Assembly (NCBI GenBank): GCA_947461915.1
Contig: CANHNG010000001.1
Coordinates: 1 to 23,062, forward strand
Direction of reading: 5' to 3'
Source: Flavobacteriaceae bacterium
GTDB lineage: Bacteria > Bacteroidota > Bacteroidia > Flavobacteriales > Flavobacteriaceae
Length of the DNA: 23,062 nt
In this document: one piece after another, positions 22,759 through 23,062 of the stretch
Position numbering within the stretch: the stretch's first letter is position 1
Layout of the letters: each line of letters begins with the position of its first letter
The notes under the pieces: model-generated
Told to the model about the DNA's origin: nothing
What the model saw: only the letters and a program-made list of their open reading frames with translations
Database searches by the model: none
Program-made: the position numbers and the translations under genes

Positions 22759-22785
22759 ATCCTCATTTTAAAAACAGTATGTTTC

Positions 22786-22809
22786 TTGTGCCTAATAATT
22801 TAGGCAAAA
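22786..22809. terminator. Hairpin between the SpmA-SpmB gene and the ubiquitin-like gene
   Basis: TTGTGCCTAA (22786-22795) pairs with TTAGGCAAAA (22800-22809) at nine of ten positions around a TAAT loop. The core GCCTAA/TTAGGC is perfect. It sits 28 bases after the spmAB stop and may end that transcript, though no long T-run follows. Confidence 0.4.
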
Positions 22810-22811
22810 TA

Positions 22812-22850
22812 TTTACGTAAAACCGTAAAGTATTGTAAATAGATACTTTA
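22812..22850. promoter_or_regulatory. Two overlapping palindromes upstream of the ubiquitin-like gene
   Basis: TTTACG (22812-22817) and CGTAAA (22824-22829) form a 6-bp perfect dyad with a 6-base spacer. TAAAGTAT (22826-22833) and ATACTTTA (22843-22850) form an 8-bp perfect dyad with a 9-base spacer. They share four bases, so only one hairpin can form at a time. They lie 75-113 bases before the ATG, a position suited for activator or repressor binding. This is an inferred operator. Confidence 0.45.
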
Positions 22851-22897
22851 TAAGTGTTTTTTTAATACATAAAATAGGAATTTCTTTATAATAGTGT

Positions 22898-22905
22898 TTA
22901 ATTTG
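22898..22905 (+). promoter_or_regulatory. Candidate -7 box of the ubiquitin-like gene
   Basis: TTAATTTG matches TAnnTTTG at all fixed positions but one (T for A at the second). It ends 19 bases before the ATG. No clear -33 TTG is found at the usual distance, so this is weak. Confidence 0.3.
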
Positions 22906-22924
22906 TTGCTATAAAATTGAACCT

Positions 22925-23062
22925 ATGAAAAAATCAGTATTTATACTCGTCGTATTTTTAATTCTGGAGTTTGCATCGATTGCGCAGGCAAATGCTCAAG
23001 GGGGGTCGGGGATGCAAATATTTGTTAAAACCCTAACCGGTAAAACCATCACCTTAGATACG
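22925..23062 (+). CDS. Exported ubiquitin-domain protein, 3' end outside window
   Basis: The frame opens at ATG 22925 and is still open after 46 codons at the window edge. Residues 1-24 look like a Sec signal peptide: basic MKK, a hydrophobic core (SVFILVVFLILEF) and a cleavage site after A-N-A at residue 24. A short linker QGGSG follows. From Met30 (base 23012) the protein reads MQIFVKTLTGKTITLDT. This is identical to eukaryotic ubiquitin at residues 1-15 and differs at 16 and 17 (D, T versus E, V in the human protein). It includes the positions equivalent to K6 and K11 and the first beta-hairpin. Known bacterial parallel: the exported ubiquitin of Bacteroides fragilis. Whether the gene codes for one ubiquitin, a chain, or a fusion, and whether a Gly-Gly tail is present, cannot be seen. 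The codons are AT-leaning and bacterial in style. Confidence 0.85.
   Translation, partial: MKKSVFILVVFLILEFASIAQANAQGGSGMQIFVKTLTGKTITLDT

Follow-up and report, generated by a model that had tools for sequence, protein, structure and literature searches.

A flavobacterial gene for a predicted exported ubiquitin whose linker resembles a junction of environmental polyubiquitins

The window analysed here, a stretch of 23,062 nucleotides, is the entire contig C1 of a Flavobacteriaceae assembly, which is 81% complete and spreads 2.0 Mb over 330 contigs. Its 138 terminal bases (22925–23062) form a stop-free frame with the translation MKKSVFILVVFLILEFASIAQANAQGGSGMQIFVKTLTGKTITLDT, which divides into the predicted signal peptide MKKSVFILVVFLILEFASIAQANA, a QGGSG linker and MQIFVKTLTGKTITLDT, the beginning of a ubiquitin domain. 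The signal peptide was judged by eye from its basic start, hydrophobic core and small residues at positions −3 and −1. Over the ubiquitin residues present in the window, 15 of 17 are identical to human ubiquitin; the runner-up match to these residues in a six-frame scan of the whole window reaches just 6/17, which argues that the ubiquitin match is not due to chance. The uninterrupted frame reported in the preliminary description thus held up. The upstream 'palindromes' mentioned there are short (10-nt arms, 90% complementary, 22786–22809; 8-nt arms, 22826–22850) and lie in AT-rich DNA, and no conclusion is drawn from them here.

Table 1. Features at the end of contig C1.
Feature	Position	Strand	Basis
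24-residue predicted signal peptide MKKSVFILVVFLILEFASIAQANA, probably cleaved at ANA/Q	22925..22996	+	by eye
QGGSG linker; GGSG probably left over from a junction between polyubiquitin units (RGG-SG-Met)	22997..23011	+	translation, junction table
Ubiquitin domain residues 1–17, truncated by the contig end	23012..23062	+	translation
Exact 119-bp repeat in common with contig C48	22944..23062	+	DNA comparison
Upstream region particular to the C1 copy; DNA match to G002 stops at ~22759	22759..22924	+	

Upstream lies a gene for a 479-residue transporter-like protein, and the other genes of the window appear housekeeping-like by eye, with no E1, E2 or JAMM gene apparent among them. The E2 profile PF00179 matched 0 of 12 genomes, but also 0 of 14 controls, so that absence is not demonstrated by it. 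The transporter is 96% identical to that of a close relative, genome G002; the DNA match between the two ends ahead of the ubiquitin gene and G002 carries a different gene there, placing the window gene at an accessory position.

A second copy in the same genome (C48:7978–9030; L002, L003) contains the entire ubiquitin domain in frame. The final 119 bp of C1 are identical in C48, with divergence upstream of these, and this recurrence explains why C1 stops inside the gene, as expected of a graph assembler; 119 is a default word length of MEGAHIT. The C48 ubiquitin is identical to human ubiquitin at 63 of 76 positions. Of the residues that the preliminary description sought beyond the contig end, I44 and K48 are present along with all seven lysines, L8, R42, G47, H68 and V70, but the C-terminal Gly-Gly is gone: the tail reads LRFPKGDV (sequence there, LVLRFPKGDVSS), residues 75–76 are K-G, and the chain continues into an Ig-like body up to that contig's end. 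A ubiquitin that lacks Gly-Gly is unfit for conjugation and has also lost the usual site of deubiquitinases, so the domain would be conjugation-dead. The remainder of the C1 or C48 copy was found on no contig of the genome itself.

Complete homologues supply the missing part. P0255, a 691-residue protein encoded on a 36.9-kb metagenomic contig, begins with the C1-type start MKKSVFILVVFLILEFASI (MKKSVFILVVF...) and is organised as signal peptide, QGGSG, ubiquitin (98.6% identical to that of C48), Ig-like (Ig_7) region and type IX secretion system (T9SS) type A sorting domain. Pfam and NCBIfam profiles for ubiquitin, Ig_7 and Por_Secre_tail match both P0255 and a further homologue, P0062, and both score above the curated PF18962 and TIGR04183 cut-offs, marking them as T9SS type A cargo; the sorting domain is known from these homologues, both copies in the window's own genome being cut upstream of that point. 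This agrees with the earlier suggestion that the ubiquitin might belong to a larger protein, perhaps one ending in a type IX secretion domain, while the chain of ubiquitins offered as another possibility appears neither in the second copy nor in the complete homologues examined. The genome itself has 31 matches to T9SS sorting domains, and SprA (SprA_N) was detected in 11 of the 12 genomes searched, the exception being this same, 81% complete, genome. The structure predicted for P0255 (mean pLDDT 66.9, pTM 0.40, residues 101–214 below 50) shows the ubiquitin strands and helix followed by a run of beta domains. The top Foldseek matches to it, pieces of the Aureispira grappling-hook protein (neck, fragment and base), are what chains of Ig repeats give and were discounted; TM-scores by query length did not exceed 0.22 among the 50 matches listed. 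Elsewhere in the family, six proteins of ~170 residues from five Flavobacteriaceae genomes (L040–L044, L046) consist of a signal peptide, ubiquitin and a T9SS-aligned tail, with ubiquitin as sole cargo, the tail domain having been scanned in L040.

The QGGSG linker is identical in C1, C48, P0255 and P0062 and is shorter in P0251 (QGG) and P0256 (QG). In the G002 homologue, a 574-residue protein encoded at another genomic site, and in P0034, Met1 follows the likely cleavage site directly; in the window copy five residues intervene. The preliminary description regarded the Gly-Ser residues as a spacer; the GGSG is better read as a relic of a polyubiquitin junction (RGG-SG-Met), as the following sequence comparisons suggest. 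We compared the domain with polyubiquitins from two of three protein searches (120 matches listed of 5006 and of 7982), a set that, as the product of polyubiquitin-swamped searches, is no even sample of eukaryotes. Among the unit junctions of the fetched proteins, 980 have no insertion, 45 carry SG (6 proteins) and 22 carry DG (2 proteins), others being rarer. All 9 distinct units that follow an SG junction carry D16 together with Q28; among units that follow a plain junction, the counts are 34/192 and 4/192, respectively. The window-genome ubiquitin has GGSG before Met1, i.e. a two-residue insertion between Gly-Gly and Met1, together with D16, S22, Q28 and A57. Its closest eukaryotic units among those fetched are SG units, two of them identical at 66 of 72 positions, with 64 for the best of 138 others (one-sided rank test, p 4e-6, with non-independent rows). 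The four rows nearest to it after P0255 in a tree of 72 columns are likewise SG units, at weak support (9 of 228 inner branches are well supported, no supported set contains the window row, and L065 is excluded). The linker was left out of both the identity comparison and the tree.

Insertions of one or two residues at polyubiquitin junctions are described as rhizarian, the double insertion as cercozoan, in the parts of the literature available to us (PMC3014934, PMC6133090, PMC12930898). The SG polyubiquitins are environmental proteins without organism names, and the letters SG do not occur in the available cercozoan passages of these papers; we infer that the SG proteins are cercozoan, DG two-residue insertions occurring too. 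Because the linker matches the SG junction, the closest units are SG units and the double insertion is cercozoan, the domain was likely captured from the polyubiquitin of a cercozoan-type protist, with which it would share the RGG-SG-Met junction, D16 and Q28; rhizarian polyubiquitin, in contrast, is a head-to-tail chain with Gly-Gly, whereas one unit follows the signal peptide in the window family. Bacterial loci with SG directly before Met1 (9 of the 79 described below, three of which lack a strong signal peptide) have D16 and Q28 in 9/9 cases, while exported loci without SG have D16 in 33/63 and Q28 in 28/63 (Fisher p 0.002 for the Q28 difference). The ubiquitins of G002 and P0034 are linkerless and closest to other, non-SG eukaryotic units, which would allow a second capture. 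In two loci from bins labelled as actinomycete (L097, L102), MSG directly precedes MQIF without a clear signal peptide, resembling the MSGMQIF start of the SG polyubiquitins P0033 and P0104.

The ubiquitin domain is not tied to its body. When only the body (residues 98–574 of the G002 homologue) served as the query, 72 proteins were retrieved, of which 10 have a ubiquitin domain. P0244 and P0250, flavobacterial T9SS type A Ig-repeat proteins, are like the window family from the body start (AGGDA...VGQ...GVQQ) through the sorting domain but differ in having no ubiquitin, so that the signal peptide abuts the body; over the first body stretch, C48 and P0244 share 71 of 110 residues. P0062 has a mosaic make-up: it groups with P0034 from residue ~120 onwards (97% across the first 233 residues of the body), whereas its signal peptide, linker and ubiquitin are of the P0255/C48 type. 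Its ubiquitin is 74% identical to that of P0034 and 86% to that of C48, although the bodies of P0062 and C48 are just 54% identical. In G023 (L007) and, by eye, in G106 (L031), the ubiquitin domain is divergent and precedes collagen repeats on a scaffold of another kind. With the same kind of body occurring without ubiquitin or with a different one, ubiquitin behaves as a cassette. A ubiquitin-free member of the apparent G023/G106 scaffold family adjoins the G002 ubiquitin gene, as judged by eye.

The findings bear out the presence in Bacteroidota of a predicted exported ubiquitin besides BfUbb of Bacteroides fragilis; that it would be a lone second case proved too narrow. PF00240 matches occur in 5/100 genomes of relatives, 12/398 of the genus, 8/397 of the family and 6/395 of the phylum, in overlapping samples that each include the window's own genome. 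From a scan of genome contigs we kept the best 80 of at least 437 relatives, or 79 loci after L115, whose frame was unreadable, was dropped. As judged by a crude hydrophobicity count, 69 of these 79 best matches have a hydrophobic stretch ahead of ubiquitin and look exported, and 10 (including L124, whose start is cut) have no strong one; since the query began with a signal peptide and ubiquitin, both the exported share and the identities given below are inflated. Small residues at −3 and −1 stand directly before Met1 in 60 of the 69 exported loci, and Gly-Gly is retained at 75–76 in 2/69. By record label the exported forms come from ten named phyla, with two loci lacking a phylum, and such labels of metagenome bins can err; 13 of the records with related genes are titled as named strains. 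Exported bacterial ubiquitin is thus, as far as sequence can tell, a broad class with a common layout. Among the publication matches listed, as far as titles and abstract openings go and with subscription journals mostly outside, none concerned this wider class.

The proteins of this class end in diverse ways. A Pfam/NCBIfam scan of 68 exported proteins (L064, with runs of N, left out) gave autotransporter families in 15, dockerin in 13, outer-membrane-protein barrels in 5, T9SS in 3, IPTL-CTERM in 3 and SLH in 2, counts that may overlap within one protein and that imply many proteins without a recognised anchor. The scan gives the anchor position for the first of the 68 only; otherwise it is known for a handful of proteins besides the window family. 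No family specific to exported ubiquitin proteins appeared among the first 25 of the 40 NCBIfam families matched. Identity to human ubiquitin across the 69 loci is 0.94 for the I44 patch, 0.96 for K48, 0.99 for K63, 0.95 for the F4 side, 0.95 for the lysines, 0.92 for the core, 0.84 for the I36 patch and 0.45 for the tail. By eye, ubiquitin precedes a dockerin in ten Clostridia loci, many from rumen (L057, L058, L069, L070, L074, L088, L091, L100, L103, L112); Dockerin_1, found in 13/68 of the scanned proteins, would hang ubiquitin on cellulosome-like scaffolds. Three of ten matches on putative viral contigs (L129–L131) show, by eye, a signal peptide, ubiquitin and an IPTL-CTERM-like tail. Four loci in bins labelled bacterial (L065, L106, L111, L123) encode plain ubiquitin or polyubiquitin with Gly-Gly and without a signal peptide, likely eukaryotic contamination.

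BfUbb is, in the published accounts available to us, the only exported bacterial ubiquitin with a demonstrated function, the inhibition of other B. fragilis strains; it comprises a signal peptide and a 76-residue ubiquitin without Gly-Gly and with a C-terminal cysteine (PMC3352274, PMC5705921). We compared it by this description, its sequence not being among the Protein Data Bank matches listed (60 out of 411 and 60 out of 267). Like the window family, it combines a bacterial signal peptide with a eukaryote-like ubiquitin lacking C-terminal Gly-Gly and occurs in some strains only. It is, however, a free protein ending in a cysteine, whereas in the window family ubiquitin follows a GGSG linker, has no cysteine there and comes first among the domains of what is predicted to be a T9SS surface protein; C48 and P0255 extend hundreds of residues beyond it. 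A 2024 paper reportedly found BfUbb to bind a peptidyl-prolyl isomerase and to contain a disulfide at the C-terminus, which we do not use as evidence. The secreted ubiquitin of Globodera, likened here by description alone, is exported and has a C-terminal extension like the window family, but is an animal effector without a surface anchor (PMC5705921, as far as available).

Nearer to BfUbb in layout than the window family are short Flavobacterium proteins such as L004, L026 and L039. We count 13 exported BfUbb-like ubiquitins of ~95 residues (L004, L006, L008, L009, L025–L029, L032, L036, L038, L039), which are clustered in G008 (three), G249 (two) and G737 (two); the L026 gene of G434, a genome from the same genus as the window's, is the same as that of the Flavobacterium collinsii record L078, so that this genus is presumably Flavobacterium. 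A C-terminal cysteine, absent from C48, is found in 11 of these 13 Flavobacteriaceae proteins, always together with cysteine 40, while two have neither; cysteines 19 and 57 co-occur in 5/13. The fold of one short protein is predicted with a mean pLDDT of 86.3, and the cysteine pairing looks as if disulfides hold the fold.

To describe selection, we calculated dN/dS for 26 pairs chosen by eye, with some loci reused; 9 pairs cover ubiquitin only and 17 have a second part, 2 of which have infinite dS. In all 15 pairs with finite dS, ubiquitin lies below the rest of the same protein (0.00–0.20 versus 0.09–0.47), in one pair barely (0.11 versus 0.12). Nine pairs of short Flavobacteriaceae proteins range from 0.03 to 0.76, the maximum belonging to L006 versus L008. 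Within the window family the binding face changes to K48Q in P0062 and P0251, V70F in P0256 and P0251, and H68R in G002 and P0034.

Our tentative model, to which we assign appreciably less than an even chance, is that the product would be a T9SS-exported, surface-anchored protein carrying a dead ubiquitin tip of cercozoan-type origin, probably acting as a decoy or ligand for protist proteins that recognise ubiquitin. After Sec export and passage through the T9SS, C-terminal cleavage and anchoring would leave the N-terminal ubiquitin as the free end, displayed towards the ubiquitin-recognising proteins of bacteria-eating protists. The exporters and anchors of the families found act at the C-terminus, so an N-terminal ubiquitin should be outermost. 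We favour display of a dead ubiquitin because Gly-Gly is absent and most recognition faces are kept (in a biased set), and a protist-facing role because the donor was likely a bacteria-eating protist. Three points speak against protists as the target: the binding face is not strictly kept within the Flavobacterium family; BfUbb, the sole tested relative in the accounts available, acts on bacteria, by analogy with which the tip might too; and eukaryotic ubiquitin receptors are cytosolic, a compartment that an ingested bacterium reaches only after the phagosome breaks. A more general form of the model, for which the chances come close to balanced, would have bacteria of many phyla wear protist-derived dead ubiquitin as an exchangeable tip on any scaffold, be it T9SS, autotransporter, cellulosome dockerin or S-layer, the Flavobacterium gene keeping a cercozoan junction scar.

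The domain could instead be a weapon against rival bacteria that, like BfUbb, would probably block a partner in close relatives, with cassette exchange as the mark of an arms race. We consider this unlikely, though it accounts for several observations: the action of BfUbb itself on other strains (again from partial accounts), the grouping of BfUbb-like short proteins within single genomes and the fast divergence of paralogues there, and the P0062 mosaic, whose ubiquitin is nearer to that of the window genome than to that of its body relative. The window family, however, has no C-terminal cysteine and carries a large, predicted-anchored body that could hardly enter a rival's periplasm, and no immunity-like gene is seen by eye upstream, the downstream side of both copies lying beyond the contigs. 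Less probable still is that ubiquitin has no special partner and serves as a stable, protease-resistant cap or spacer at the free end. Ubiquitin stability is established, the domain leads proteins of very different kinds, and its core is well conserved; but the I44, F4 and lysine surfaces are kept like the core although a cap would not need them, and a cap would require no one particular fold. The surface argument has its own limit, in that the I36 patch and the tail are less kept and close matches are over-represented in the sample. Very improbable indeed is an artefact in which eukaryotic ubiquitin DNA was joined to a bacterial contig. That the contig ends within the gene at a repeat might suggest one; we nevertheless dismissed an assembly chimera, the refutation that the preliminary description had itself envisaged, since a second in-frame copy exists in the genome, the same joint recurs in P0255 and P0062 on other contigs, the G002 homologue lies on a 49.8-kb contig among bacterial genes, and related genes occur in the named-strain records.

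The probable scar of a polyubiquitin junction offers a clue to origin beyond what a lone 76-residue protein could supply. Should the tip be directed at protists, it would represent a bacterial device against grazing, or for uptake, made from a signalling protein of the eukaryotes themselves; should it be directed at bacteria, BfUbb would be the earliest known member of a large family of weapons.
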